Translations under genes and position numbers: made by a program
Notes under the pieces: generated by a model
What the model was told of the DNA's origin: nothing
Database searches by the model: none
What the model saw: only the letters and a program-made list of their open reading frames with translations
Part shown: piece by piece, positions 6,587 to 61,960 of the stretch
Position numbering within the stretch: position 1 is the stretch's first letter
Layout: each line of letters begins with the position of its first letter
NCBI GenBank assembly: GCA_035533075.1
Contig: DATLUO010000221.1
Coordinates: 1 to 64,000 of the forward strand
Reading direction: 5' to 3'
Source: Pirellulales bacterium
Lineage (GTDB): Bacteria > Planctomycetota > Planctomycetia > Pirellulales > JAICIG01
Length of the DNA: 64,000 nucleotides

Positions 6587-6633
6587 GTAGGGTGGGACCA
6601 GCGAGCTTGCGAGCGCCGGCCCACCGTGACGGA
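6587..6633. repeat. Dispersed palindromic repeat, family A (half-copy)
   Basis: The core, read on this strand, is gtgggaccagcgagcttgcg followed by agcgccggccca. The same core in the opposite orientation lies at 54948-54980 and 61921-61960, and shorter pieces at 14937-14957 and 39172-39197. All copies are between genes. The copy at 54859-54980 is a full inverted-repeat element, so this is a half-copy of a MITE-like sequence. Confidence 0.8.
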
Positions 6634-15638: not shown

Positions 15639-15714
15639 GGTAGACGGTAGACGGGGGAGAGAATTGCAAATTGCAAATTGGCAATTGCCTGACGCCTGAC
15701 GTCTACCGTCTACC
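15639..15714. repeat. Inverted repeat between sigma factor and kinase genes
   Basis: ggtagacggtagacg at 15639-15653 and its complement cgtctaccgtctacc at 15700-15714 form a 15-bp stem. Between them is an AT-rich stretch with repeated aattgcaaatt. It may terminate the sigma transcript. The same taccgtctacc string recurs in frame inside the kinase gene near 20885-20915. Confidence 0.7.
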
Positions 15715-15719
15715 GATTT

Positions 15720-15753
15720 TCCTGACAGGTTTTGCCCCCTGCCAACGTACATG
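15720..15753 (+). promoter_or_regulatory. Putative ECF-sigma promoter of the kinase gene
   Basis: The block tcctgacaggttttgcc (15720-15736), 9 unconserved bases, then cgtacatg (15746-15753). The same 17-bp and 8-bp blocks with the same 9-bp spacing occur at 23159-23192 before the giant surface-protein gene. Conservation of both blocks and of the spacing, with different sequence between, is what a -35/-10 pair looks like. The ATG follows 34 bp after the second block. Confidence 0.75.
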
Positions 15754-15787
15754 CTGTTATGGCCCGCTTTTTATGGAGAATCGAACC

Positions 15788-18700
15788 ATGACCGACAAGG
15801 CGGTTTGCCCGGATGCGGCGGCGATCGAACGGCTGCTGCTGGGACGCACCAGCGACGCGGAAACCGACGATCTCGAGCGGCACCTGCTCGATTGCGACCG
15901 CTGTTGCGAGGTTTCGCGTTCGCTGCATCTCGACGACACGATGGTGGCCGGCTTGCGGCGCGACAACCACTTGGCCGCCATCGCCCAGGAGGCCCCGGTG
16001 CGAGCCACGATGGCCCGGCTGATGGCCCTGCGGACTGCCGCGGCCGCCAGCCAGCCGGAAGAGACGATGACGGTGGCCGGCGAGAGCACCGACGACGCCT
16101 GGGGGCTGCGCGAGCTGCTCGACCCGCCCCAGGCCGAGGGCGAGCTGGGCGGTTTCGCCGGCTACCGCGTGCTGCGCGTGCTCGGCGCCGGCGGCATGGG
16201 CATCGTCCTGGAGGCCGAAGATCCGCAGTTGCAACGCCGCGTGGCGCTGAAAATCATGAATCGCGGCCTGGCCGCCCGCAGCGAAAACCGCCAGCGGTTC
16301 CTGCGCGAGGCACGGGCGGCGGCGGCCATCGAGCACGCGCACATCGTCACGGTCCACCAGGTGGGCGAGCAGCGGGGCGTGCCCTTTCTGGCCATGCAGT
16401 TACTCAAGGGCGAGAGCTTGCACGACCGGCTCGAGAGAGAGGGTTCAGGCACCCAGAGGGTACCCCGGGTTCAGGGTTCAGAAAAGAGGGAAGCGGGAAT
16501 GGACAATCCAAAATCCAAAATCCAAAATCCAAAATCGCCTCTGCCGCTGGCCGAGTGCCTGCGCATCGGCCGCGAAACGGCCGAGGCCCTGGCCGTGGCG
16601 CACCAGCGGGGGCTGATCCATCGCGACATCAAGCCGGCCAACATCTGGCTCGAATCGCCGGGCGGCTGGGTGAAGCTGGTCGATTTCGGCCTGGCCCACG
16701 TCGTGGAAGACGAAGTCCATCTTACCCAGACCGGCGCCATCCTGGGCACACCGTCCTATATGTCGCCCGAACAGGCCCGCGGAGACAGCGTGGGTCCGCG
16801 GTCGGACCTGTTCAGCCTGGGCGTGGTGCTCTATCGGCTGACGACCGGGCAAACTCCTTTTCAGGGCCGTGGCACGCTGGCCGTGCTGACGGCGCTGGCC
16901 ACGGCCGATCCGCGGCCCGTGGGCGAGTTGAACCCGGAGCTACCGCCGGCGTTTGCCGACGTCATCATGCGGCTGTTGGCCAAGGATCCGGGCGAGCGGT
17001 TCGAGTCGGCGGAGGCGGTGGCCGAGGCGATTCGGGCAATCGAGGCGGCGGAGAGCGAGGGAGCGAGGGAGAGACAGAGAGACGGAGCGAGGGAGAGACG
17101 GAGCGAGGGAGAGATGGCGGGCAGACCGCCGCGGCGCCGATCGCGCTGGCCGTTGGTGGCCGCGGCGGCAGCGGCTTGTTTTCTGTTGGCGGGCATGGTG
17201 GTGGTCATCCGCGACAAGGAGGGCCGCGAGGTGGCGCGGATCAACGTGCCGGAAGGCGGCAGCGTCGCGACCGAAGAGAGTCCGGCGAGCCCCGCCGCGC
17301 CGGGACGTAAGCTTGCCGGTAGTACCGATGCGGCGAGCCGCCGCGCCACACCAACCCGAAGCGCCAGCGAGGAAAGCGCCAAAGCAGGCCCGGTCCCGGC
17401 GCGCCGGGGTGACGGGAGCGCCAGCCCGTCGCCCGAAGGGCGACCGGCGTCTCCGCCATCCCGGCGCGCCGGGATCGGAGCTACTTTGCCCGACCGTGCG
17501 AAGCCGTTCCTCTTGGTCCGCGAGGGAAAACAGGCCGCCGAGTTCAAGACCATCGCCGGCGCGCTGGGCGAAATGCAAGCCGGCGACGCGATCGAGGTCT
17601 ACGGCAATGGGCCCTTCACGCTGCCGATCGTCAATCTCGATGGCAAGCCGTTCACGCTCCGCGCCGGCGCCGGTTTTCGCCCGCGGTTCGTGCGCACCGA
17701 GGGGGCCAAGCAACAATTCCACAGCGCGTGGATCACAGTCAACAACGCGCCGCTGACACTGGAAGGCATCGAGCTGCGCGAAGATCTGCTTGCCCACAAT
17801 ATCCTGCACGGCGGCGGGGCACCCTGGGAAATCCGCCGCTGCCTGTTGCGCAGGGGGGATTCCCATGCTGCAGCACTGCTTCATTATGAACGTGGACCGC
17901 ACCTGCGAATCGTCGACAGCGTGTTGGCATCGGGGCATAGCCAATATTCGATCAAAATTGGCACATCGGCCGAGGTCCACTGCGAAAACAACCTGTATTG
18001 GAGCGGTGGCAGTTTCTTCACGCTCCAGGGCGGCGGCCAGAAGCTTCGCTTCACGCGGAACACGTTCGCCGGCCAGGGCACTTGGCTCCATTTTCCAGAT
18101 GCGGAACATGCCGCCGTGGAAGTGCTGGCGGAAGAGAACGTGTTTCGCGTCGGCCAATTGCTATGCACGCGCACCACCAGCATGGAGGTATTTCGCGAGG
18201 TCTGTCGCTGGAACGGTCGCCGCAATCTGCACGGTGTTGTCGGTGGTGCCAGCAGTTTGATCTTCAGTCAACCTCTTGAAGGTTCGGGCAGGGTGAGCAT
18301 CGCTGGCGACGACCTGGCCGCCTGGAGCAAGTTCTGGGGCGAGCATGAACAAGGCGCCATGCTCGGTACGACGCCGACGCTGAGGTATGAGGCCGCCTGG
18401 CTGGCCCCTAAGGCCGGCGACCCCCGGCGCGGCGGCAGAGGCATTGCGCTCCGCCGTGATGAAACTCCCCTACCGCGGCTGCACCACTGGCTCGACCCGC
18501 GCCCGCTCGACCCGCTGTCGCCCACCACGGCAGGCTCCGAAGGCGACGCTGGCCCCAGCGCCGCGGTCGGCCCCGATTGGCGCCTGGTCGGCCCCGGCGA
18601 AGCATACCTGCGCGCACTGGCCGATGCCGGGCATCCGGTCACCGACGAGCAGCTTGGCCTGGAGGGGACTGAAGAGGGCGCGGTGGTGCTGCTCCACGAG

Positions 18701-21700
18701 AATACGCTGGCCCGTGGTTACGCGACGGTCGCCGAGGCGGTCGCCGCCGCAGCCGACGGCGACACCGTGGCCATCCGCGCCAACGGCACGTTTCCGGGCT
18801 TCGACCGGCGCGGTGAGCGACAGGGCAAGCGGCTCACGCTGCGCGCCGGTTATGGCTATCAACCGACGATCGGCGATAACGTGCTGTTGGCCCCGGGCGA
18901 TGTGTGGTCGATCGAAGACTTGCACTTCAGTGGCCAGGTCTGGGTGGCGAACGGCGCGCCGGCGGCCGAGGGTCAACCGGCGCCGCGGCTGCTCAATTGC
19001 AGTTTCGAGCCTGCCCTGGCAGCCTCTGGTCCGATGCCGCAGGTCACGACCTACTCGGAAAGCGCTCCGCCGCTGGAGGTGGTGAATTGCCTGCTGCCGA
19101 ATGGGGTCAACTTCGCCGGCGCACGGCTGCGTGTGGTGAATTCGGTTATTGCCTCGGTCGGTCTCAATCCGATCGAGCCGCAACGGCCGCGCGCGCTGGA
19201 TCTCGACCGTTGCGTGGTCTGGAGCAACTTCTCGCCGGCCATTCAACACGGTACTGTTCAGTTGACGGTCAGCGCGCGGCGCACCTGGTTTGAGTTTAGC
19301 AGTTTCCTGCGCCAGGGTGACGACGCGGCATTTCAGTGGCAGGGCGACGAAAACGTCTACTGTCACGGGGCCGTGCGATGGCAGAGCGATTGTGATCTGA
19401 CCACCGCCGCCAATTATGTCGGTTCCCTGCCGGCATGGCAGGCGCGCTGGTCGAGCGACGCAGGCTCGCGCCAGGGCGACGCCGTGTTCATCGACCCGCG
19501 CTTCTGCGGGCTGTTGCCCAACAGCCCCGGCCATCAGGCCGCGCAAGACGGCGGCGACCTGGGCGTGGACCTGAGCCGTCTGGGCATGGCAACCCCGAGC
19601 GACAAGGTAGACCCGGCACTCCGTGACGGGGGCGCCAGCCCGTCGCCCGAAGGGCGACCGACGTCTCCGCCACGGAGTGTCGGAGCTACGTTGCCCGAAC
19701 CGCCGCCGCTCGACGAGTGGCTCAAGGGGCGAGAAATCCTGACCGTCGCCCAGGACGGCAGCGGACAGTTCAAGACCATTCAGGCGGCGCTCGATGCGCT
19801 TAAGCCGCACCAGGTGGTAAAGGTGCTCGACCGCGGGCCATATCGCGAAGTGGTCCGCGCAGACGGCCTGCCACACGATACCGGGCTCATCAGCGACCGG
19901 CAAGCGACCATCCAGCTTTCGGAATGGGACAAGCACGACGGAGCCTACTTAAGCGGGCACAGCTTCGGCCCGCTGGACGGCTTTCGCCTTGCCGGGTGCC
20001 GTTTCGTCGCGCCTCCGCATGAGAAGTGGGTCTGGGCTTCAATTATCGGCTTGCGACGAGTCGAGGGACTTGTGGTGGAAGATTGCTACTTCGGCTGGAC
20101 AGAGCCTCGGCCGGAAAACCGCATCGATCCCGAACCCGCGATCTGCTTGTACTCTGATGACGGCCAGCGCGGCAGTGCCCCGAATGTGGTGCGAAACTGC
20201 TTCTTCAACGCTGCGGCTCTCGGCCTCCAGGGCCCCAACCTCTTCGTCGACCGGAATTTCTTCGTCGACACGATCATCGCGCTGAGTGGACCGAAGCACG
20301 AGACGCGCATTCGGCACAATGTGTTGGTCCGCGATGGGTTTGTGCTCGATTTAGTCAAGATCGACGAGGTCACGGGATTCGTGGAAATCAGCAACAATAC
20401 GGTCTTCGGTGCCGGTTTCGATGTCCGCGACGGCGCACCGAGACAAGGCGTCGCCATTCGCAACAACATTACTACGCAAGGGGTTCGCCTCAGCGGTGAG
20501 GCCGACAAGCTGCGAGACCAAATCTTTAAGAACTGGCTGGTGGACCATAACAGTTACTTACGCCTCGGCTCGCTGCCGAAGGGGCGCGGCGACATCCTGG
20601 AAGATCCCGCGTTCCTTTCGACGGAGCCTGGCGGCCGGGACTACGCGCGCATTCCCGCCGACGGTCCCTTGGCCTCGGGCGGCGCCGGCGGCGACTTGCC
20701 GGACTACGTCGGCGCCTTGCCGCCCGGCCCCGCGCCCAAGGAAGGCGATTGGTTTACGCGGCTGCGAGAGCGGTGGCAGGCCGGCGAGGACAAAGTAGAC
20801 CCGGTCCCGGCGCGCCGGGATGATGTGGGCGCCAGCCCGTCGCCCGAAGGGCGACCAACGTCTCCGCCACGGACCGTTGTTCCCCGTCTACCGCCTACCG
20901 ACTACCGTCTACCTACCTTGGCCGACGAGCGGGCGGTGGCCAAGTGGGTCGTCGAGAACGGCGGCACGGCGGAATGCGGAGACTACCGAAGCTGGCGGAG
21001 CCTGCCCGTGAGGACGGTCCGGCTCAACGGCAACTTGTCGGTGTACGACGATTCGCTGGCACGTTTCCGGCACTGCCCCCGGCTGGACTTCATCGACTTG
21101 AAGCGCACGCTCATCTCCGACGCGGGCCTGGTGTACTTGGCGCCCCTGAGCATGCTTCGCCACCTCGACCTGCGCGAGACCGACGTTTCCGACGCCGGCG
21201 TGCAACGTCTCGCCGCGTTGAAGCTCCTGGAGCGGCTTGACTTAAGCGGCACGCGCGTCAGCAATGCGGCCCTGCCCACGCTGGCCACGGCGTTTCCCGT
21301 GCTACGTTTCCTGCTGCTCGAAGGCACAGCGATTACCGACGCGGGCCTGCCCGCACTGGCCGCACTGGAGCAATTGGACGAGCTCGACCTCAGCCACACC
21401 CAAGTGACCGATGCCGGGCTGGCGCGACTGCAACCGCTCACGGGTCTGATGCGCCTTTCACTCGCGGGCACCGAGACGACCGACGCGGGCATCGACGCGC
21501 TGCACAAGGCGCTCGTCGATTGCTGGATCACCGGGCCGGACGGACGCCTTCACGCCCCGCCGGTGCGCGACGACGATCCCGATCGAACGGCGGCCGAGGC
21601 CCTGCTGGAGAGAGGCTTCAAGGAGATCTGCCTGACGGCCGACGGAGTCAACGAGACGCGTTGCCGGGCCGCGGCGGATCTTCCGCGCGGGCCGTTCAAG

Positions 21701-22711
21701 GTGCTGCGCGTCGAGGTGCTCTGGATGGGCCACGCGCCGAACATCGCGGATGCCGGAGCCGTGGGCGACGCAGAAATCAAGCTGCTCGCGCGGCTGCGGC
21801 AGCTTCGCGTTGCGAATTTGAACGGCACGCAAGTCACAGACCGTGGGCTGGATTGCCTGAAGGGCTTGCCGAAACTCGCCGAGCTGGGCCTCAGCGGCTG
21901 CCGGCGCTTGACCGCTAACGCCCTGTCGCTCTTGGCGACGCTGCCGCGGCTTCGCCTGCTGTGGATCGACGGCGGGTGTTGCACCCCCGCCAGTCTCCAG
22001 CACGTCGCGGCGCTGGCGTATCTCGACTTCCTGCACATCAACGGCGACCAGTTCGCCGACGCGACGCTGAAAAGGCTCAGCGGATTGTCGAACCTGCGGT
22101 TCCTGCGACTGAGCGGCGGGAAAGTCAGCAGCGCTGGTCTGGGGCAGCTCGCATCCCTGCGCAGCCTTTTGTCTTTGGACCTGTCAGATGATGTGAGGTT
22201 GCAGACGAGCGACCTTGAGGGCCTTGCCGAGGTGCGCGGATTGGAAGAGCTTGGTCTGCCCGGCGTCCTCACTTCGCCCGACGTGTTCCGCCGGCTTGCC
22301 GCCCTGCCGCGCTTACTGGTTCTTACTACGCGCGGAACCAAGCTTGGCGACGACGGCTGTCGAGCGATCGCCGGACTGCGGTCATTGGAGGGGCTCGACG
22401 TGACTGGGCGTTTAGTGACCGACGCCGAACTGGCGCACCTCGCGCGGTTGTCGGATTTGCGATATCTGCTGCTGGATGCGGGACAAATCACCGACGCCGG
22501 CCTGGCGCACCTCGCGCAGTTGTCCAATCTGCGAGAGCTCGTGCTCCGCCCGGCGCTCAGCATGAGCGGCGCGGGCCTCGAGCATCTGCACGGCCTGAAG
22601 ATGCTCAAGGTGCTGAGGCTGGTGCAGTTGCCCGTCACTGAATCCACCGAGTCGGGCGTCGCGGCCTTCAAGGCCGCCGTGCCCGGCTGCAGCGTCGATT
22701 GGCCGAAATGA
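15788..22711 (+). CDS. Giant Hanks-type Ser/Thr kinase with beta-helix and leucine-rich-repeat sensor
   Basis: A 2307-aa protein. Start ATG 15788, with GGAG nine bases upstream. Residues 32-39 hold an HxxxCxxC motif (HLLDCDRC) like zinc anti-sigma domains. The kinase spans roughly 126-420, with GAGGMG, the ATP-binding Lys in VALKIM, HRDIKPAN, DFGLAH and GTPSYMSPEQARG all intact. A membrane helix lies near 450-474. Outside follow three parallel beta-helix units (about 573-895, 935-1271, 1305-1658), each opening with a FKTIAGAL/YATVAEAV/FKTIQAAL segment, then LRRs to the C terminus (1710-2304). Short DNA repeats have inserted in frame: one inside the kinase domain, three in interdomain linkers. 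Confidence 0.9.
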   Translation: MTDKAVCPDAAAIERLLLGRTSDAETDDLERHLLDCDRCCEVSRSLHLDDTMVAGLRRDNHLAAIAQEAPVRATMARLMALRTAAAASQPEETMTVAGESTDDAWGLRELLDPPQAEGELGGFAGYRVLRVLGAGGMGIVLEAEDPQLQRRVALKIMNRGLAARSENRQRFLREARAAAAIEHAHIVTVHQVGEQRGVPFLAMQLLKGESLHDRLEREGSGTQRVPRVQGSEKREAGMDNPKSKIQNPKSPLPLAECLRIGRETAEALAVAHQRGLIHRDIKPANIWLESPGGWVKLVDFGLAHVVEDEVHLTQTGAILGTPSYMSPEQARGDSVGPRSDLFSLGVVLYRLTTGQTPFQGRGTLAVLTALATADPRPVGELNPELPPAFADVIMRLLAKDPGERFESAEAVAEAIRAIEAAESEGARERQRDGARERRSEGEMAGRPPRRRSRWPLVAAAAAACFLLAGMVVVIRDKEGREVARINVPEGGSVATEESPASPAAPGRKLAGSTDAASRRATPTRSASEESAKAGPVPARRGDGSASPSPEGRPASPPSRRAGIGATLPDRAKPFLLVREGKQAAEFKTIAGALGEMQAGDAIEVYGNGPFTLPIVNLDGKPFTLRAGAGFRPRFVRTEGAKQQFHSAWITVNNAPLTLEGIELREDLLAHNILHGGGAPWEIRRCLLRRGDSHAAALLHYERGPHLRIVDSVLASGHSQYSIKIGTSAEVHCENNLYWSGGSFFTLQGGGQKLRFTRNTFAGQGTWLHFPDAEHAAVEVLAEENVFRVGQLLCTRTTSMEVFREVCRWNGRRNLHGVVGGASSLIFSQPLEGSGRVSIAGDDLAAWSKFWGEHEQGAMLGTTPTLRYEAAWLAPKAGDPRRGGRGIALRRDETPLPRLHHWLDPRPLDPLSPTTAGSEGDAGPSAAVGPDWRLVGPGEAYLRALADAGHPVTDEQLGLEGTEEGAVVLLHENTLARGYATVAEAVAAAADGDTVAIRANGTFPGFDRRGERQGKRLTLRAGYGYQPTIGDNVLLAPGDVWSIEDLHFSGQVWVANGAPAAEGQPAPRLLNCSFEPALAASGPMPQVTTYSESAPPLEVVNCLLPNGVNFAGARLRVVNSVIASVGLNPIEPQRPRALDLDRCVVWSNFSPAIQHGTVQLTVSARRTWFEFSSFLRQGDDAAFQWQGDENVYCHGAVRWQSDCDLTTAANYVGSLPAWQARWSSDAGSRQGDAVFIDPRFCGLLPNSPGHQAAQDGGDLGVDLSRLGMATPSDKVDPALRDGGASPSPEGRPTSPPRSVGATLPEPPPLDEWLKGREILTVAQDGSGQFKTIQAALDALKPHQVVKVLDRGPYREVVRADGLPHDTGLISDRQATIQLSEWDKHDGAYLSGHSFGPLDGFRLAGCRFVAPPHEKWVWASIIGLRRVEGLVVEDCYFGWTEPRPENRIDPEPAICLYSDDGQRGSAPNVVRNCFFNAAALGLQGPNLFVDRNFFVDTIIALSGPKHETRIRHNVLVRDGFVLDLVKIDEVTGFVEISNNTVFGAGFDVRDGAPRQGVAIRNNITTQGVRLSGEADKLRDQIFKNWLVDHNSYLRLGSLPKGRGDILEDPAFLSTEPGGRDYARIPADGPLASGGAGGDLPDYVGALPPGPAPKEGDWFTRLRERWQAGEDKVDPVPARRDDVGASPSPEGRPTSPPRTVVPRLPPTDYRLPTLADERAVAKWVVENGGTAECGDYRSWRSLPVRTVRLNGNLSVYDDSLARFRHCPRLDFIDLKRTLISDAGLVYLAPLSMLRHLDLRETDVSDAGVQRLAALKLLERLDLSGTRVSNAALPTLATAFPVLRFLLLEGTAITDAGLPALAALEQLDELDLSHTQVTDAGLARLQPLTGLMRLSLAGTETTDAGIDALHKALVDCWITGPDGRLHAPPVRDDDPDRTAAEALLERGFKEICLTADGVNETRCRAAADLPRGPFKVLRVEVLWMGHAPNIADAGAVGDAEIKLLARLRQLRVANLNGTQVTDRGLDCLKGLPKLAELGLSGCRRLTANALSLLATLPRLRLLWIDGGCCTPASLQHVAALAYLDFLHINGDQFADATLKRLSGLSNLRFLRLSGGKVSSAGLGQLASLRSLLSLDLSDDVRLQTSDLEGLAEVRGLEELGLPGVLTSPDVFRRLAALPRLLVLTTRGTKLGDDGCRAIAGLRSLEGLDVTGRLVTDAELAHLARLSDLRYLLLDAGQITDAGLAHLAQLSNLRELVLRPALSMSGAGLEHLHGLKMLKVLRLVQLPVTESTESGVAAFKAAVPGCSVDWPK
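16438..16537. repeat. In-frame low-complexity insertion in the kinase domain
   Basis: ggttcagg repeats are followed by four tandem copies of aatccaaa. They add about 33 codons (including NPKSKIQNPKS) between the hinge segment LLKGESLHDRLE and the helix PLPLAECLRIGRETAEALAV. Normal kinases have a short linker here. The same aatccaaaatccaaaat string is one arm of the internal hairpin of the family A element at 54903-54942. Confidence 0.8.
17387..17484. repeat. Palindromic repeat family D, copy 1, inside the kinase gene
   Basis: Two copies of the 14-bp palindrome cccggcgcgccggg (17395-17408 and 17460-17473) flank the core gccagcccgtcgcccgaagg. The right end reads cggagctac. It encodes a linker with SASPSPEGRPASPP just outside the membrane helix and keeps the frame. 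Confidence 0.85.
19607..19689. repeat. Palindromic repeat family D, copy 2, inside the kinase gene
   Basis: Starts gtagacccgg, has the same core gccagcccgtcgcccgaagg, and ends cggagctac. The flanking arms are ggcactccgtgac and its near-complement cacggagtgtcgg instead of the GC palindrome. That compensating change of both arms indicates selection on the hairpin. In frame, in the linker between beta-helix units 2 and 3. Confidence 0.85.
20795..20873. repeat. Palindromic repeat family D, copy 3, inside the kinase gene
   Basis: Starts gtagacccgg, with the palindrome cccggcgcgccggg at 20806-20819 and the same core. The right arm is lost and is replaced by a taccgcctaccgactaccgt string. It encodes GASPSPEGRPTSPP in the linker between beta-helix 3 and the LRR domain. 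Confidence 0.82.
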
Positions 22712-23253: not shown

Positions 23254-26200
23254 ATGTTCGCCCACTGGACCGCCAAGCAGGCACGCGCTCAAAACCACCG
23301 CCGATCGAAGTCTCGCCGCCGCAAGGGCCAGCGGCACGCCGGACGCAAATCGCTGTTTCAGCTCTTGGAACAGCGCTCCCTGCTCTCTGCGGTGTTGTGG
23401 GTGGGCGGCAGCGGCAACTGGGACGACGGCACCCACTGGAGCGGCGGCCAAGTGCCCGGCAGCGGCGACAACGTGACGATCGACACCGGCGCCACGGCGG
23501 CCACCATCACCATCAAGTCGGGCGACGACATCCAGGTGGGCAGTCTCAACACCACCGCCAACGACACGCTGGCCATCACGGGCGGCTCGTTGGTGACCGC
23601 GGGAACGTCCACCCTCAGCGGGCCGCTCGACATGACCGGCGGCTCGCTCGAGGCCGACGCGAATCTGACGGCCAACGGCAGCACCACGGTTTCGCAGGCC
23701 AACCTGGACGCGGAGAATGGCGCGACCCTCAGCCTGCCCAAGCTGACGAGCACGATCACCAACGGCTCATTCACGGCCAACGGCACGGGCAGCGTGCTCG
23801 ACGTCTCGGCGCTGACCAAGGTCACGCAGCAGGCCGGCTGGAACGTCAACGCCACCGCTGGTGGCGAGGTCAAGCTCTCCGGCCTGACCAGCCTGACCAG
23901 CACCCAGGGCATCAACATCAACGATAGCGGCAACAGCACGCTCCTGGACGGCAAGCTGACCAGCCTCAACGGCGTCGGCGTCACGCTGGACGGCACCGAC
24001 CCGCACGTGGCCGACGCTTGGACCAAGTTCACCAGCGGCACGCTGACGGTATACGGAAACTCCGTAGGTACCGGCTACAGCCTGTCGGCCCTGACCGACG
24101 TCGATCAGTCGAACCTGGACGCCGAAAGCGGCGGCCAACTGGCGCTACCGAAAGTGACAAGCTATGTCTCCAACCAAACCTTCTTCCAGGCGAGCGGCAC
24201 GAACCCGGGCACGTCCGCGCCGAGCCTGCTCGACGTGTCGGCCCTGACGGGCCTGACGCAGCAGAGCTACTGGGACGTCCATGCGTACTTCGGGGGCGAG
24301 GTCAGGCTGACGGGCCTGACCAGTCTGACCAAGACGCAAGGCATCTTCTTCACCGACACCTACGGCAGCACGCTTGACTTGAGCGGCCTGACCAGCCTAG
24401 CGGGCACGGCTGGCGGCGACATCACCGAATCTGGCGGCAGCACGCTCGTGGATCCGAAGCTGACCACCCTCAACGGCGTCAATGTCCAGCTCGACGGCAC
24501 CGACGCGCAAGTGGCCGACTCTTGGACCACGCTGACTAACGGAAGCCTGGAGGTCGATACGGGTTCCTACAGCCTGCCCGCCCTGACCGACGTCGATCAG
24601 TCCAGTCTGGACGCCGAAAGCGGCGGCCAGCTCGCGCTGCCGAATCTGACGGGTTACGTGTCCAACGAAAATAACTTCCAGGCCAAGGGCACGAACACGG
24701 CTACGCTCCAGCCCAGCCTGCTCGACGTGTCGGCCCTGACCACGCTGACGGCGCAGCAGGGCAGTTGGGCCATCAACGCGCTCAACGGCGGCGAGGTCAA
24801 ACTGTCGGGCATGGCCAGCCTGATGAACGGCCCCAACCAGGGCATCAGCCTCACCGACACCGGCGGCAGCACGCTCGTGGATCCGAAGCTGACCACCCTC
24901 AGCGGCGTCAGCGTCACGCTGGACGGCACCGACGCGCACGTGGCCGACGCTTGGACCAAGCTCACCAGCGGCAGTCTGGAGGTCGATGGAAATCCATCGA
25001 ATTTCGGCTACAGCCTGTCCAGCCTGACCGACGTCGATCAGTCCAGTCTGTTCGCCGAGAGCGGCGGCCAGCTCGCACTGCCGAAGCTGACAAGTTACGT
25101 GTCCAACGGCTTCCTTCAAAACGGCACGTTCGAGGCCAATGGCATGAACACGGCTACGCTCCAGCCCAGCGTACTCGACGTGTCGGCCCTGACCACGCTG
25201 ACGGCGCAGCCGGGCAGTTGGACCATCAACGCGCTCAACGGCGGCGAGGTCGAGCTGTCGGGCCTGACCAGCCTGTCGACCAGCACCCAGGACATCAACA
25301 TAACCGACACCGGCGGCAGCACCGTCCTGGACGGCAAGCTCACCAGCCTCGACGGCGTCAATGTGACCACCGATGGCAGCGACACGCAGCTCGTCAACTC
25401 CTGGACCACGTTCACTAGCACCAGCGGTCACCCGGATCGCCTGACGGTCACGGGCGGTTCGCTCACCTTTCCGAAGCTGACCGACCTCGCCTCGTCGAGC
25501 CCCCTCGGCGGCACCGCGCTCGACTTTCCGGTGCTCGCGAAAGGCAGCCTGATCTTGGGCGACGGCACGAGCGCGACCATTCAAGGCACCCTCGTCGCTT
25601 TGCCGGCCTCGGGCGCCACCGGCGCCACCGTCAACGCGCCGGCCTCGCAGGGACTCAGCATCACGCTCGACAGCAGCGGCACCTTCAACGGCGGCACGAC
25701 CGTCAATGTCGGCGCGGGAACCACGCTCGCGCTGGCGGGCGGAACGTACCTCGGCGGCGTCAACTTCAACTTCGGCGCCGCGGCGACCGCCGATCTCACC
25801 GGCGGGCAAACGACCACCTATGGCGGCACGCTCGCTGCCACCGGCGCCGGCACGGTCGTCATCAGCGGCGGCATATTCTATCCCGCAACGGGTGGCGGCG
25901 CAACCCTGAATTTTCCCGGCGGCATGTTCCAGTGGACCGGCGGCGGGATGGAGCTTTCCGTCGGCGATGTGACCAACCGCGGCACGATCAACCTCTCCGG
26001 CTCGAATGACACGCAAATCTTCGCCGACGGTACGCTCGACAACTACGGCAGCATCATCCAGACTGGCAGCGGCGACTTCAATCTGCACAGCGACAGCATC
26101 ACGCCCACCACGCTCAAGATCGAACCAAGCGGGCAGTACCAGATGGAGTCGGATGCCGGCATCAACAACTTCTACGGCACCAACCTGATCGACAACGCCG

Positions 26201-52563: not shown

Positions 52564-54801
52564 TTAGAGCCGGATATTGAACGTCTGCATCAGCAGCCGC
52601 CACAGCCTCCGGCCGAGCGGTTGCGGCGCGGTGTGAATGCGGGCACGCCCCTTGTAGCCGATCCGCAGCAGGCCCTCTGGATCGTCCAACGGCACGCGCG
52701 CCTGATACGACGTGTTCTGCGGCCGCTCGACCCCCGACTCGTCCGTCTTGGTCGCCAACTCGCCGCCCGCCTTGTTCGACAAATGCCGCGGGCTGACGCG
52801 CAGCGGCTCGCTCGCGATCTCGCTGATCTTGCCGTGCAACGTGTCGAACGGCAACTCGTCGAGCTTGATGTCGACCCGTTGCTCCTTCTTGATGTATTCG
52901 ATGTCGTTCTGCTCGATGACTAATTGCGCCTCCATCTTCGCCGGATCGCCGACCTGACAGAAGAACGTCCCCTCCTGCAAAAAGGCGCCGCGGTTGCGCT
53001 CCGCCAGCGGCGTGCCCGTCCACGAGGCAAGCTGCGTGTCGGCGGTCGGTTTGTCCATTTCGGGCGGGGGCAAGACCATGCCGGCCACGGGCGTCACCAA
53101 TGCCAATCGCGTCAGATCGGTGCGCTTCTCGGCCAACTGTTGTTTGACGGACCGCAGCGTGGCTTCGAGCGGTTCCATTTTCAGTCCGGCCGTTTCGTGC
53201 CGGTCGCGGATCAGCTCGCTTTGCAGGTTCGCCAGTCGGATCTCCGTCAGATCGCGCTCGCCTTCGAGCCGCGCCACTTCCAAATCGGCGTCGACATTCT
53301 GGAGCTGGGCCAGCAGCGTGTCTCCTTCCACCCGATCTCCCGGCTTGACCCGGACGTCGACCAACTCTCCGGGCACCGTGACATAGACCTTGTAGGCGTC
53401 GCGAGGCTCGATCTCGAAGGTACAATAGACGCGGTGCGGCAACGGCACAAAAAAGACGGCCAACAGTGCGGCCGCAATCACTCCCAGCGTGGCGTACATC
53501 CGCGGCTTCTTCACTTTTTCGATCCTCCCAGGAACCCAAAAGAATTTGCCCAGCTTCCAAAACGGTTGCACCACCAGGCCGTACAGCGACATCGAGCCGA
53601 TGATTTGTCCGATGATTTCCAGGCGGTACGGCTTCCAGACTTCGTACAAGAAGAACAAGATCGAGAACACGATCACCCAGCGATAGATGGCCGAGGCCAC
53701 GCTGTAGAGCGCGAACAGAAACTGGTTCCGCTCCGGTAGGAAAGGGTCGTCCTGCGGTTCCAGGCCCAGGCACCACTCGCCCATTTTGCGGTTGAGAATG
53801 TCGGTCGCCTTTTGTCGCAGGTTCGGTATCTCGAGCACGTCGGCGAGAATGTAGTAACCGTCGTAGCGCAAGAGCGGGTTCGAATTGAACATCAGCGTGC
53901 TGACCGAGCACACGAACATAGTGCTCAGGCAGAGGTGGTTGAGCAGTCCGGGCTCGGTATACCACCAGATGAATGTGCAGATCGAAGCGATGACGATCTC
54001 GATGTACATTCCGGCCGCGCCGATGGCAGCGCGGTGCCACTTGTTCGGCAACATCCAAGAATCGGAGACGTTGCAATACAGACACGGCGTGAGCACCAGG
54101 AGCATGACGCCCATCTCGTGACATTCGCCGCCAAAGTGCTTGCACGTCAGGCCGTGGCCAAACTCGTGAATGACCTTCGTCACGCCCAGCGCGATCGAAA
54201 GATAGACCGCGTTCTTCAAATTGAAAAACTGGTGGAATTCGGGCAGCTTCGATTGGAAGACGTCGAACTGCACCAGCACCAGCGACAACGCCGACAGGGC
54301 CAAAAGCATGCAGGCGACGACGGCCGGCCTGGAATAGATCCACTTCATCCGTGGATACAGCCAGTTGAGAATGCGTTCAGGGTCGATGCCTTTGAAACGG
54401 ACCGAGAGGATATTGCTCATCCGGCCGATCCACTCTTTGCGCCAACGATCGCTGCGCCGCAACAATAATTGGTGCCCCTGTCCGGGCACGTTGGCGACGA
54501 TCAGACCGCTGCGGTGGAGCATGCCGACGAACTGCTGCAGCTCCTCGATGCCGATTTTTTGGGGCGGGAAGAGGGCCTCGAACCGCTCCTTGATCTCGTC
54601 CAGACTGGTGTATCCGTCGAGCATCTTGAGGATGGCGTATTCCTCTTCCTGGAAGCGGAAGTAGTTCAGCCCGACCGGCTCCTTGACGACCCAGTAAAGC
54701 CGGCCCTGATAGCGATGCTGCCGCGCGGTCAAATCGGGCCGCATGCGCATGGCAAGCTTGCGCGCGGAACTCGAGACCAAGCTGTCGTGGAGGGTCAGCA
54801 T
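52564..54801 (-). CDS. PqqD-like / M50 site-2 protease / HlyD adaptor fusion
   Basis: A 745-aa membrane protein. Residues 1-100 resemble a PqqD-like peptide-binding winged domain (FRFQEEEYAILKMLDGYTSL). A membrane metalloprotease core follows, with zinc motif HEFGH (about 211-215) and the second ligand region FNSNPLLRYDGYYIL (about 305). After another membrane segment (LGVIAAALLAVFFVPL), residues 460-745 form a HlyD-type adaptor: VTVPGELVDVRVKPGDRVEG, a coiled coil, then a beta barrel. Last gene of a three-gene minus-strand cassette of adaptors. Probably processes and/or exports a peptide or protein; substrate unknown. Confidence 0.85.
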   Translation of the reverse strand: MLTLHDSLVSSSARKLAMRMRPDLTARQHRYQGRLYWVVKEPVGLNYFRFQEEEYAILKMLDGYTSLDEIKERFEALFPPQKIGIEELQQFVGMLHRSGLIVANVPGQGHQLLLRRSDRWRKEWIGRMSNILSVRFKGIDPERILNWLYPRMKWIYSRPAVVACMLLALSALSLVLVQFDVFQSKLPEFHQFFNLKNAVYLSIALGVTKVIHEFGHGLTCKHFGGECHEMGVMLLVLTPCLYCNVSDSWMLPNKWHRAAIGAAGMYIEIVIASICTFIWWYTEPGLLNHLCLSTMFVCSVSTLMFNSNPLLRYDGYYILADVLEIPNLRQKATDILNRKMGEWCLGLEPQDDPFLPERNQFLFALYSVASAIYRWVIVFSILFFLYEVWKPYRLEIIGQIIGSMSLYGLVVQPFWKLGKFFWVPGRIEKVKKPRMYATLGVIAAALLAVFFVPLPHRVYCTFEIEPRDAYKVYVTVPGELVDVRVKPGDRVEGDTLLAQLQNVDADLEVARLEGERDLTEIRLANLQSELIRDRHETAGLKMEPLEATLRSVKQQLAEKRTDLTRLALVTPVAGMVLPPPEMDKPTADTQLASWTGTPLAERNRGAFLQEGTFFCQVGDPAKMEAQLVIEQNDIEYIKKEQRVDIKLDELPFDTLHGKISEIASEPLRVSPRHLSNKAGGELATKTDESGVERPQNTSYQARVPLDDPEGLLRIGYKGRARIHTAPQPLGRRLWRLLMQTFNIRL

Positions 54802-54858
54802 CGGGAGAAAACGTCTATGTTGCTTTTTTGGACCGCATTAGGGATCAGGGGCCGTTGG

Positions 54859-54980
54859 GTGGGAGCGAGCGAGCTTGCCAGCGCCGGCCCATCATCGGCG
54901 CGATTTTGGATTTTGGATTGGTTGGAATCCAAAATCCAAAATGGTTGTGGGCCGGCGCTCGCAAGCTCGCTGGTCCCACC
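54859..54980. repeat. Dispersed repeat family A (complete inverted-repeat element)
   Basis: Left arm 54859-54891 and right arm 54948-54980 are near-perfect complements (tgggccggcgctcgcaagct on the right). The centre is a perfect hairpin with 17-bp stem attttggattttggatt (54903-54919), loop ggttgg and the complementary arm to 54942. It lies between two genes of the export cassette. Confidence 0.9.
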
Positions 54981-54989
54981 CTACGTCGT

Positions 54990-55928
54990 TTACCGTCGTG
55001 ACGCTTTGGGCTTCTCGGCGGCCACGCCCGCGTCGACCTTCATCACCGGCGTCATACCGGGCAACAACAGCCAGGCCCCGCGCTCCTCGCGGTTTTCGAC
55101 TTCCGCGATCACGCGGTACTTGTCGCCCGCCTTCAATTCGGGGGCCACGAACACAATCTGCCCCTTGAACTCGACCGAGCGGTTTCCGGTCAAGGTGGCG
55201 ACGACCGTCACCGGCCGGTCCACAACTTGGGTTTGCGCAACGTCGGCCAGCCGCAAACTTCCCTCGACGCGCACGGTTTTCATATGCACGACGCGGACGA
55301 TGGGATCGCCCGGATTGACCCATTCGCCGACGTGCCGATAAACCTCGATCACCACGGCGTCGATGGGCGAGAGCACGCGACGACGGTGAATGTCGTCGTC
55401 GGCGGCCTCGACCGACGCCTCTTTGACCTTGGCCGTAAGCTTGGCCACGTCCAATTCGAGTTGCGCTTTGTCGACTTCCAGCATGCCCTTTTGCCATTGC
55501 AACAGCAGCTTCATCATCTCGGCCTTGGGAGTCGAGCCGGGGGCCTGCTTGTTGGCGTCGCGGTGAGCTTCGAAATCAAAGTGAGCGACCTCTTGGGCCT
55601 TGTCGGCATAGCGCACGGAAATGTCGTTGGTTGCCTCCGCCAAGGCCACCTCGTGCTCGGCCTGGGCCACCTTCTTGGCGACTTGGGCCTTACTGTCGTT
55701 GATCTGCGCCAACTTGTCGCCGGCCTTCACCTCCGCGCCTTCGCGGACCTTCACCTCGGTGAGCACGCCCGGCTCCTGAGCGGCGACGTCGATCTCCCCG
55801 CCGTCGATAAAGGTGACCATCGCGTTGTCGACTTCGAATTGGCCGGCGGCGCGGCGGCCCGGCGATTCGCCATTGTCGGGCCCCGTCAGGGCAAGCGCGG
55901 CGGACAAGAACCAAATGCTGGCGGACAT
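54990..55928 (-). CDS. HlyD-family periplasmic adaptor protein
   Basis: A 312-aa secreted adaptor. A short signal peptide (MSASIWFLSAALALTG) precedes a lipoyl-like half-motif (EVKVREGAEVKAGDKLAQIN). A long charged coiled coil spans about 80-185 (KVAQAEHEVALAEATND onward). The second lipoyl half is VLSPIDAVVIEVYRHVGEWV followed by NPGDPIVRV, then a beta barrel (GSLRLADVAQTQVVDRPVTV). Such proteins bridge an inner-membrane pump and an outer-membrane channel. Middle gene of the cassette, 10 bp after the GAF-HlyD stop. Confidence 0.87.
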   Translation of the reverse strand: MSASIWFLSAALALTGPDNGESPGRRAAGQFEVDNAMVTFIDGGEIDVAAQEPGVLTEVKVREGAEVKAGDKLAQINDSKAQVAKKVAQAEHEVALAEATNDISVRYADKAQEVAHFDFEAHRDANKQAPGSTPKAEMMKLLLQWQKGMLEVDKAQLELDVAKLTAKVKEASVEAADDDIHRRRVLSPIDAVVIEVYRHVGEWVNPGDPIVRVVHMKTVRVEGSLRLADVAQTQVVDRPVTVVATLTGNRSVEFKGQIVFVAPELKAGDKYRVIAEVENREERGAWLLLPGMTPVMKVDAGVAAEKPKASRR

Positions 55929-55938
55929 GCGTTTTTCC

Positions 55939-57972
55939 TCACATATTCATCGGGAACAAGACGCGCGACTCCAGGAAGCCGAACGCGTCGTGGAATAACC
56001 AATAGCCGACCGATGTGCGGCCGCAGTACACGCGGGCCTTCACGTTCGCGCCCGGACGAAGCAAGGCAGCGTGTTGCTCTTTGTCGATTTTCACCTTGAT
56101 CATCACGACGCTGCCGTCTTCGCCGTGGACCTCGGCGCTTTCGTGAACCTCGGCGATTTTGCCTTCGTAGTTCGTGCCCGGCTCCGTCGCCAGGTGGTAG
56201 GTGACGGGCAGGTCCGGCCCGCGGTCCTTCTGGGCCCACACGATGTGCCCCATGCGGTCTTCGGGCGTGTCGAGCTCGAGCTGCCAGTCTCCGCTGTCGT
56301 CGGCCACGGTCAACAGCGCGTCGCCCGGCTTCACGGGCCGCGCGAGCAGGTCTTTTTCGAAGTCCCACGTGGTAATCAGGCCGTCAATGGGACTGGTGAT
56401 CTTCGTTTTTTCTTTTTTCTCTTCGAGCAGAGCCAGTTGCCGCCGGAAGCTCTTGACTTCCACGTCGTGCTCGGAAATCTCCCGCTCGGCGGCGGATTTG
56501 GCGTCTTGATCGTCGTTGCGAGAGACGCGGCTGTTTCGAGCGTGCAACGCCGCGAACAACGATTCCTGCGCATGCTCTAGCTTGCCGCGCACGTCTTCGA
56601 GGGCCACGTCGAGATCGGTGCTCTTCATTTCGACGAGTACCTGGCCCTTGTGGACGTGCTGCCCGTGCTTCACCAGTATGCGCTCGATCGTGCCGTCGGT
56701 GGTGGCAAACACCTCGCGGCGGACCACCGGCTGCAGCTTGCCTTCGCTGGTGAAGCTGAAATCGATCGGGTAGATGAACAGGAACAGCAGCACCAGCAGG
56801 ACGGCCACGGAAATGGAAATGGTCTTGGGCAGCGTGCGCGCCTCGACCACCCACTTCGCCTTGCCGATCGTGCGCCACACCGGCATCAAGAACAGGCTGT
56901 TGTGCTCCAGCGCGTTGGCCAGCGCCAGCGAGCTATGATCGCAGACCACGTTCACGCGCTGCACCATTCCTTCGCGCGGCCGAGCGTCTTCGATTTGTTC
57001 GACCACCAGCGCGCCGATCGTCTCCGGTTCTTCGGCCTCTTCGTCGGTGGGGTCGATCACGGCACGCTTCAAGGGCAGAACGGCCACGTGCTTGGAGTGC
57101 GATTCATCGACGTAGGCCTGCACGGCGTCTTCGACCTGCGGGGCCAGGTCGCTGGTGTCGCCCGAATACCACAGCGGCTCACCCGCCATCACCACGGCAC
57201 TAGTCAGCTTGTTCAGCAGCGCGATGACGTTCGAGCGTTTGTCGAAAGTGTCCTGTCCGCTGACCGCTTCGATTTTGCACTTGCGGCCGTGGCGAATGGC
57301 CACGCTGACGCGGTCGCACTCGATCAAGCGGCGGCCCTCGTTGGCGATGGTGTAAGAGGTTTCACGCGGGTCGAGACTAGTGTGGGCCACGCGGCTGAAG
57401 TTTTCGAGTTGGTTCCAGAGCGTTTGGCGGTCGGTAAAGTGCCGCAACTGGCGGTTCTTCAGATAATCGCTGGCCAGCTCGCACATCTGCAGCAGGAACT
57501 TCAAGTATCCGCGCTGCGTGGTGGGAGGGGCGCCGGGACGCTGAAAGACCTCGATCACCCCCTTCGACTCCTGATCGACCTTGATCGGTCCGAGAATCAG
57601 CAGGAAATCGGTGGGGTTGCCGGGCTGGTTTCCGTCGCCTTCGCCCGAATGGGGCGTGATCAGAGCGCCTTCGCCGGCGGCCATCGTCTTTTGCAACAGC
57701 AAGCCGTGCTTTTGCAGGTTAGGCTGATTGTCGGCCAGACGGGTTTCGCGGAAATTGATCTGGTATTGCAACTCCAGCGCGCCGCCCTCGCCCAGGATCC
57801 AGACCGCGCCGCCGGCCGCAGCCAAGGCCGACACGACCCGGTCGAGGAAGGCGCCATAAAACTCACGAGCGTTGACGTCCTGCTTGGCAAGCTGGGCAAT
57901 CTCGACCACCAGCCCGCGGATCTGGTTCTTGGTTTGTTCGATGAGATGCGGGTCGACTTGTTCGGTGCTCAT
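55939..57972 (-). CDS. GAF-domain HlyD-family membrane adaptor
   Basis: A 677-aa protein. Two GAF-like sensor domains occupy about 35-190 (AAGGAVWILGEGGALELQYQ) and 205-370 (IECDRVSVAIRHGRKCKIEA, ETIGALVVEQIED). One membrane helix follows (TISISVAVLLVLLFLFIYPI, about 380-400), then a HlyD adaptor: FTSEGKLQPVVRREVFATTD, ILVKHGQHVHKGQVLVEMKS, a coiled coil and ITSPIDGLITTWDFEKDLLA. The cytoplasmic GAF pair suggests that export is gated by a small ligand or redox signal. First gene of the cassette. Confidence 0.87.
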   Translation of the reverse strand: MSTEQVDPHLIEQTKNQIRGLVVEIAQLAKQDVNAREFYGAFLDRVVSALAAAGGAVWILGEGGALELQYQINFRETRLADNQPNLQKHGLLLQKTMAAGEGALITPHSGEGDGNQPGNPTDFLLILGPIKVDQESKGVIEVFQRPGAPPTTQRGYLKFLLQMCELASDYLKNRQLRHFTDRQTLWNQLENFSRVAHTSLDPRETSYTIANEGRRLIECDRVSVAIRHGRKCKIEAVSGQDTFDKRSNVIALLNKLTSAVVMAGEPLWYSGDTSDLAPQVEDAVQAYVDESHSKHVAVLPLKRAVIDPTDEEAEEPETIGALVVEQIEDARPREGMVQRVNVVCDHSSLALANALEHNSLFLMPVWRTIGKAKWVVEARTLPKTISISVAVLLVLLFLFIYPIDFSFTSEGKLQPVVRREVFATTDGTIERILVKHGQHVHKGQVLVEMKSTDLDVALEDVRGKLEHAQESLFAALHARNSRVSRNDDQDAKSAAEREISEHDVEVKSFRRQLALLEEKKEKTKITSPIDGLITTWDFEKDLLARPVKPGDALLTVADDSGDWQLELDTPEDRMGHIVWAQKDRGPDLPVTYHLATEPGTNYEGKIAEVHESAEVHGEDGSVVMIKVKIDKEQHAALLRPGANVKARVYCGRTSVGYWLFHDAFGFLESRVLFPMNM

Positions 57973-61920: not shown

Positions 61921-61960
61921 GGTGGGCCGGCGCTCGCAAGCTCGCTGGTCCCACCCTACC
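61921..61960. repeat. Dispersed repeat family A (half-copy)
   Basis: ggtgggccggcgctcgcaag followed by ctcgctggtcccaccctacc. It lies just after the stop of the penicillin acylase gene and before the HTH gene. Same orientation as the right arm at 54948-54980. Confidence 0.85.

Follow-up and report, generated by a model that had tools for sequence, protein, structure and literature searches.

A three-gene GAF, HlyD and M50 cassette of a Pirellulales bacterium as a candidate part of a SecA-powered exporter of LEPR-XLL proteins

Three adjacent genes (A, B and C) in a 64,000-nucleotide stretch of a Pirellulales genome (positions 1 to 64,000 of contig DATLUO010000221.1, assembly GCA_035533075.1; the whole stretch is referred to as the window) probably encode the components that a SecA-powered, type-I-like exporter of large LEPR-XLL surface or secreted proteins has in the membrane and periplasm. 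In a wider interpretation, for which we see the balance as even, LEPR-XLL would be a RiPP-type leader by which diderm bacteria address giant proteins to a separate secretion pathway, composed of an RRE-M50-HlyD reader, a SecA-family motor and a type-I-like conduit. If this is true, Planctomycetota, Pseudomonadota, Desulfobacterota, Nitrospirota and Omnitrophota export very large proteins by means of RiPP leader recognition that was either co-opted for this purpose or arose from it.

The interpretation pairs two orphans: a secretion module published in 2015 without a substrate, and LEPR-XLL, an orphan NCBI domain found on giant proteins. It also offers a mechanism, recognition of a leader by an RRE, that can be addressed with a short peptide and a domain of ~90 residues. 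If right, it would provide a route by which many bacteria export proteins of 2,000 to 14,000 residues without a Sec signal or an adjacent ABC exporter, and a means of finding such substrates genome-wide.

Gene content of the cassette

The three open reading frames lie on the minus strand exactly where the original prediction had placed them, and the domain order that it had proposed (GAF-GAF-TM-HlyD, HlyD and PqqD-M50-HlyD) was borne out by Pfam, AlphaFold folds and sequence motifs (Table 1). Pfam detected HlyD domains in all three products and Peptidase_M50 in C. The cassette arrangement is not due to chance, because A, B and C co-cluster in most of the relatives examined.

Table 1. Positions of the cassette genes, their domains and the candidate substrate in the window
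Feature	Position	Strand	Basis or remark
Gene A, GAF-GAF-TM-HlyD adaptor, 677 aa	55939..57972	-	ORF, Pfam, AlphaFold model
First GAF-like domain of A, aa 12-178	57439..57939	-	AF2 fold comparison
Second GAF domain of A, aa 180-360	56893..57435	-	Pfam GAF 1.1e-5; fold
HlyD/MacA-like periplasmic adaptor part of A, aa 402-655	56008..56769	-	Pfam HlyD_3 1.9e-12; fold
Gene B, HlyD family protein, 312 aa	54990..55928	-	Pfam HlyD_3 7.9e-15; NCBIfam RND_mfp
Gene C, RRE(PqqD-like)-M50-HlyD fusion, 745 aa	52564..54801	-	ORF, Pfam, NCBIfam, AF2
RRE/PqqD-like domain of C, aa 16-105, predicted leader-binding	54487..54756	-	fold match
HEFGH zinc motif of C, aa 212-216	54154..54168	-	motif
Second catalytic motif NSNPLLRYD of C, aa 306-314	53860..53886	-	motif
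HlyD/MacA-like periplasmic part of C, aa 453-728	52618..53445	-	MacA 3fpp Z 15.5
Giant RHS/YD-repeat, Big_9, DUF4214 protein, 3671 aa	23197..34212	+	candidate substrate
Variant LEPR-XLL motif LEQRSLLSA of the giant	23365..23391	+	not matched by NF012209

The Pfam matches of A were HlyD_3, Biotin_lipoyl_2 and one GAF domain; the other GAF domain, the first in the chain, was not detected by Pfam. In the AlphaFold model both residues ~12-178 and residues ~180-360 align to GAF structures with Z scores of 14-16, the former to GAF 4g3v (Z 16.2) and the NifA GAF 8jrc (Z 15.8), the latter to 3ci6 (Z 15.7). A membrane helix (residues 385-403) is followed by the adaptor part, whose model aligns to MacA 3fpp and 4dk1 (Z 14.8-15.6). 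Gene B starts 10 bp after A, and its product has a hydrophobic N-terminal signal segment and scores above the cut-off of NCBIfam RND_mfp. The gap between B and C is 188 bp long. It contains one copy of an exact 23-base repeat, GTGGGACCAGCGAGCTTGCGAGC, which occurs three times in the window (6592-6614, 54957-54979 and 61932-61954; chance expectation 0) and looks like a piece of a longer dispersed intergenic element.

By sequence the PqqD-like domain of C is weak (NCBIfam PqqD, E 0.08), but it is supported by a profile match to PqqD 3g2b (E 0.024), by relatives (Pfam PqqD match of 4.5e-5 at locus L072) and by structure. In the AlphaFold model of C (mean pLDDT 83) residues 16-105 adopt a winged-helix RRE fold, which aligns to the RRE of TbiB1 with its bound leader peptide (5v1v; Z 11.4, rmsd 2.7, 86 of 88 residues) and to a lasso-peptide B1 protein (6jx3; Z 10.9). 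The N-terminus of C thus models as a leader-peptide-binding RRE. The M50 core is assigned from motifs, Pfam and NCBIfam. The nearest curated model of C is NF041824, the daptide intramembrane protease, whose match (E 2.4e-53, aa 27-382) spans the RRE and the M50 core together and remains under the curated cut-off (181.7 vs 300 bits). Judged by NCBIfam, the AlphaFold model and fold comparison, C has the fusion of an RRE to an intramembrane M50 protease by which daptide proteases are recognized. A diverged M50-HlyD paralogue of 958 aa is encoded on another contig of the source genome (C203; L062:9580-12456), with an OmpA-family gene nearby but neither A nor B.

The secondary SecA module and its gene neighbours

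The original prediction had regarded the system as unrecognised. This was not supported, because a module consisting of a 'secondary SecA_DEAD' and three type-I-related proteins had been described by Kamneva, Poudel and Ward in 2015 (PMC4452313). In the parts of that paper cited here, the truncated 'secondary SecA' is the presumed motor, with SecA proposed to be the ATPase and M50 to form the pore; the biological role of the module is called completely unknown and no substrate is named. The cassette products fit the three type-I-related components: A the GAF plus HlyD/biotin_lipoyl protein, C the Peptidase_M50 plus HlyD protein, and B the separate HlyD/biotin_lipoyl protein. A secondary SecA_DEAD protein is encoded in the source genome as well. 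Its gene stands alone at C283:11748-13628 (also L198:6701-8638), on a separate contig from the cassette. The protein has SecA_DEAD, preprotein-binding and P-loop domains, and SecA_SW is absent; its Walker A, DEAD and TNMAGRG motifs are intact.

Homologues of C (E<=1e-20) were found in 97 of 392 planctomycete genomes. Of the 58 planctomycete genomes with at least two SecA matches, 57 have C, which supports SecA as the motor. At 40 planctomycete C loci the recurrent neighbours were A, B, a SecA-like ATPase of ~660 aa (16 loci), DUF3467 (14) and a TolC-like protein (5). A scan of public genomes yielded 80 module loci in Alpha-, Beta-, Gamma- and Deltaproteobacteria, Nitrospirota and Omnitrophota, in which the common gene order is giant, DUF3467, A, C, SecA, B. 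Outside the planctomycetes, in 86 loci, C had as its fixed neighbours A (78), the secondary SecA (76), B (59), DUF3467 (34) and TolC (9). An ABC transporter was not a recurrent neighbour of C in either the 40 planctomycete or the 86 non-planctomycete loci.

This survey of the relatives of C, with A, B, the secondary SecA, DUF3467 and TolC recurring, agrees with the original prediction in part. ABC and RND pumps are indeed absent from the window's cassette, but the claim that the system works without its own pump was rejected, because relatives encode a SecA-type ATPase beside the cassette; the source genome encodes such an ATPase elsewhere, and relatives sometimes encode TolC too. TolC-family proteins gave 23 OEP matches elsewhere in the source genome and none beside the cassette.

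DUF3467 (~100 aa) often directly follows the LEPR giant (examples are L089:17854-18135, L091:17744-18040 and L046:7472-7855). The cited parts of the 2015 paper (PMC4452313) do not name it, and it may act as a chaperone for the giant. In public annotation the secondary SecA appears as 'prepilin peptidase' or 'DEAD/DEAH box helicase' (L087:23068-25092, L088:20225-22141 and L089:22130-24115); the L089 copy was confirmed to be SecA-like, and the L087 and L088 copies were assigned by similarity.

LEPR-XLL proteins as candidate substrates

In alphaproteobacterial plasmids of Pseudosulfitobacter, Pontibrevibacter and Thalassospira, the gene preceding the module carries the NCBI annotation 'LEPR-XLL domain-containing protein'. 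Whole-genome searches detected LEPR-XLL in 29 of 30 module-bearing genomes of phyla other than Planctomycetota. In 16 of these 30, with contigs matched by their length, the gene of the LEPR giant shares the strand of C and stops 1.8-3.6 kb upstream of it, an interval that has room for A and little beyond; in the remaining linked cases one giant is divergent upstream and one lies downstream. The pairing of module and tag also joins two separately published facts on Methylobacterium extorquens AM1: the module corresponds to META1p2399-2402 according to the cited parts of PMC4452313, with META1p2400 as the secondary SecA, META1p2401 as M50-HlyD and META1p2402 as GAF-HlyD, all but META1p2402 showing little expression under the conditions of that study, and it borders the genomic island META1_2402-2415, which has been labelled 'giant META1_2412 gene' (PMC2680597).

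Among Planctomycetota, C is present in 35 of the 37 genomes with a LEPR-XLL match (E<=0.01) vs 62 of 355 others (odds ratio 83, Fisher p 1e-21). Permutation within families, which reduces the effect of shared ancestry and for which the family counts were entered by hand, gave a p value of about 5e-6. The 62 C-bearing genomes have no LEPR match at this threshold, and two LEPR genomes (G165 and G173) have no C. In an even draw of Alphaproteobacteria, with the centre genome left out, C was found in 4 of 10 LEPR genomes vs 6 of 229. Gene order and co-occurrence thus support the link to LEPR-XLL proteins that the original prediction had called speculative, and together with the module relatives they argue for its idea of an export or processing system. 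They suggest that the LEPR-XLL tag may be the address label of an export machine. No earlier report of a LEPR-XLL/SecA/HlyD link was found among open-licence papers, a coverage that does not prove priority.

The leaders have the consensus phi-E-x-L-E-P-R-x-L-L-S-A-D. In the 39 examined, the motif is preceded by a median of 37 residues with a median net charge of +7, and a Sec-like hydrophobic core was found in none. The pattern phi-E-x-phi-E is strictly present in 31 of 39, and phi-E precedes LE in 2% of the background. The daptide leader consensus, ELExMEAP, is recognized by an RRE protein; its Leu and Met have been modelled into hydrophobic pockets of the RRE and are essential for processing (PMC10036551). 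The LEPR and daptide motifs can be aligned without gaps, both as phi-E-x-phi-E; this likeness, compared after both motifs had been seen, is a lead. Giant alphaproteobacterial proteins near the module at L191, L192 and L211 carry a sister tag, ALEPRMMFDAA, which is possibly a second leader type.

The source genome encodes at least 12 proteins with LEPR-XLL-like leaders. In a profile search for them the six best matches were part of the profile itself, so that only the further matches are independent. The 3671-residue giant of the window is among these proteins, and its profile match is circular, its own sequence being in the profile. The original prediction had named this giant as a LEPR-XLL protein. 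Its N-terminal region does contain a variant of the motif (LFQLLEQRSLLSA), but the curated model NF012209 (17-bit cut-off) does not match it. By a wider definition, a basic N-terminal stretch followed by LExRxLL[ST][AG], it belongs to the group (RRSKSRRRKGQRHAGRKSLFQLLEQRSLLSA). The strict LEPR pattern occurs in the DNA of the window at chance level. The gene of the giant is on the opposite strand to the cassette, 18 kb away, and we infer its link to the cassette. The gene directly before that of the giant (15671-22711) encodes a protein of 2346 residues in which a kinase domain is combined with leucine-rich repeats.

At five planctomycete loci (L046-L050) a gene for a protein of ~1150 aa lies next to DUF3467 beside the cassette. 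The L046 copy has cyclophilin, Big_9 and dockerin domains. These proteins have N-terminal LExRxxL variants (LEVREVF, LESRQLL) and are probable planctomycete substrates with a diverged tag.

The proposed export route, its alternatives and known systems

On the basis of gene content, linkage, co-occurrence, motifs and modelled folds, all read from sequence, the following route can be envisaged. On the cytoplasmic side, the RRE/PqqD domain of C would bind the leader, as RREs bind RiPP leaders. The secondary SecA ATPase would then push the unfolded chain across the inner membrane, either through SecYEG or through a pore of the C/A complex. From there a conduit built in the periplasm by the HlyD portions of A, B and C would lead to a TolC-family channel whose gene lies elsewhere. 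Clipping or release of the leader may fall to the M50 site, and gating of assembly to the tandem GAF domains of A. One-step export of an unfolded chain would fit the RTX repeats of the Thalassospira LEPR protein, because such repeats fold with calcium outside the cell; another RTX-containing LEPR-XLL protein, of ~8000 residues, is on record in Vibrio (PMC10868602).

The H, E and second H of HExxH and the N, N, P, L, L and D of NSNPLLRYD are invariant across 51 diverse homologues of C, and because these catalytic positions are invariant the M50 enzyme is probably active. Intramembrane M50 enzymes usually need a transmembrane stretch in their substrate. Cleavage of the LEPR leader by C is doubtful, because the leader has no clear transmembrane stretch. 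The same feature favours an alternative, rather unlikely in our estimate, in which the module exports LEPR-XLL proteins without cutting them, M50 being a channel and not a protease, C the inner-membrane pore and SecA the motor. A pore of this kind was proposed in the cited parts of the 2015 paper because SecA cannot form one (PMC4452313), and it would agree with the single SecY of the source genome (99% complete assembly), in which a search for a second SecY gave none. On the other hand, conservation of both HExxH and NxNPxxxxD is as expected for a working zinc protease, and the daptide protease, the nearest curated relative, has been credited with leader removal, with leader binding tested on MpaB, another RRE protein, and not on the protease (PMC10036551).

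If C were a leader-removal protease only, LEPR-XLL proteins would exit by canonical type I or Sec secretion, and the module would mature or anchor them at the surface. This appears less probable still. The presence of C in genomes without a detected second SecA speaks for it: 40 C-bearing planctomycete genomes, the single-contig genomes G024, G283 and G291 among them, show no second SecA at E<=1e-60 among the three candidates scored per genome. So does the Thalassospira LEPR protein, which is full of RTX repeats of the kind usual in ABC-driven type I substrates. Against a role restricted to proteolysis, the three HlyD adaptors and the frequent TolC in the gene row argue for a conduit, the leaders have no Sec signal, and no ABC transporter recurs as a neighbour. 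That the co-occurrence stems from genome size or a giant-rich lifestyle, the cassette having another cargo, for example a peptide or metabolite, is very improbable and, judged by linkage, largely excluded: many module genomes are large and the window's cassette does not adjoin a LEPR gene, but LEPR giants come first in the gene row across many unrelated lineages and the association holds within families.

The SecA-powered exporter of LEPR-XLL proteins proposed here shares features with four known systems. With the type I secretion system (HlyB-HlyD-TolC) it has in common HlyD adaptors, TolC in some loci and RTX repeats in one presumed substrate; in contrast, no ABC transporter is found among the neighbours of the HlyD gene in the window or as a recurrent neighbour in the relatives, and the tag is N-terminal whereas the type I signal is usually C-terminal. 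Like the accessory SecA2-SecY2 system, it would use a second SecA ATPase for special substrates, but the source genome has one SecY, the partners are HlyD and M50 proteins, and the secondary SecA is without SecA_SW. The module of Kamneva et al. has the same GAF-HlyD, M50-HlyD, HlyD/biotin_lipoyl and truncated SecA proteins and no ABC transporter, and the difference is that the SecA of the source genome is encoded on another contig; LEPR-XLL, RRE and DUF3467 are not mentioned in the cited parts of that paper (PMC4452313). Finally, C resembles the daptide protease MpaP (NF041824; PMC10036551) in the fusion of an RRE to an M50-type protease and in a leader motif with phi-E-x-phi-E, and differs from it in the added HlyD adaptor and in its presumed substrates, which are giant proteins instead of short peptides.
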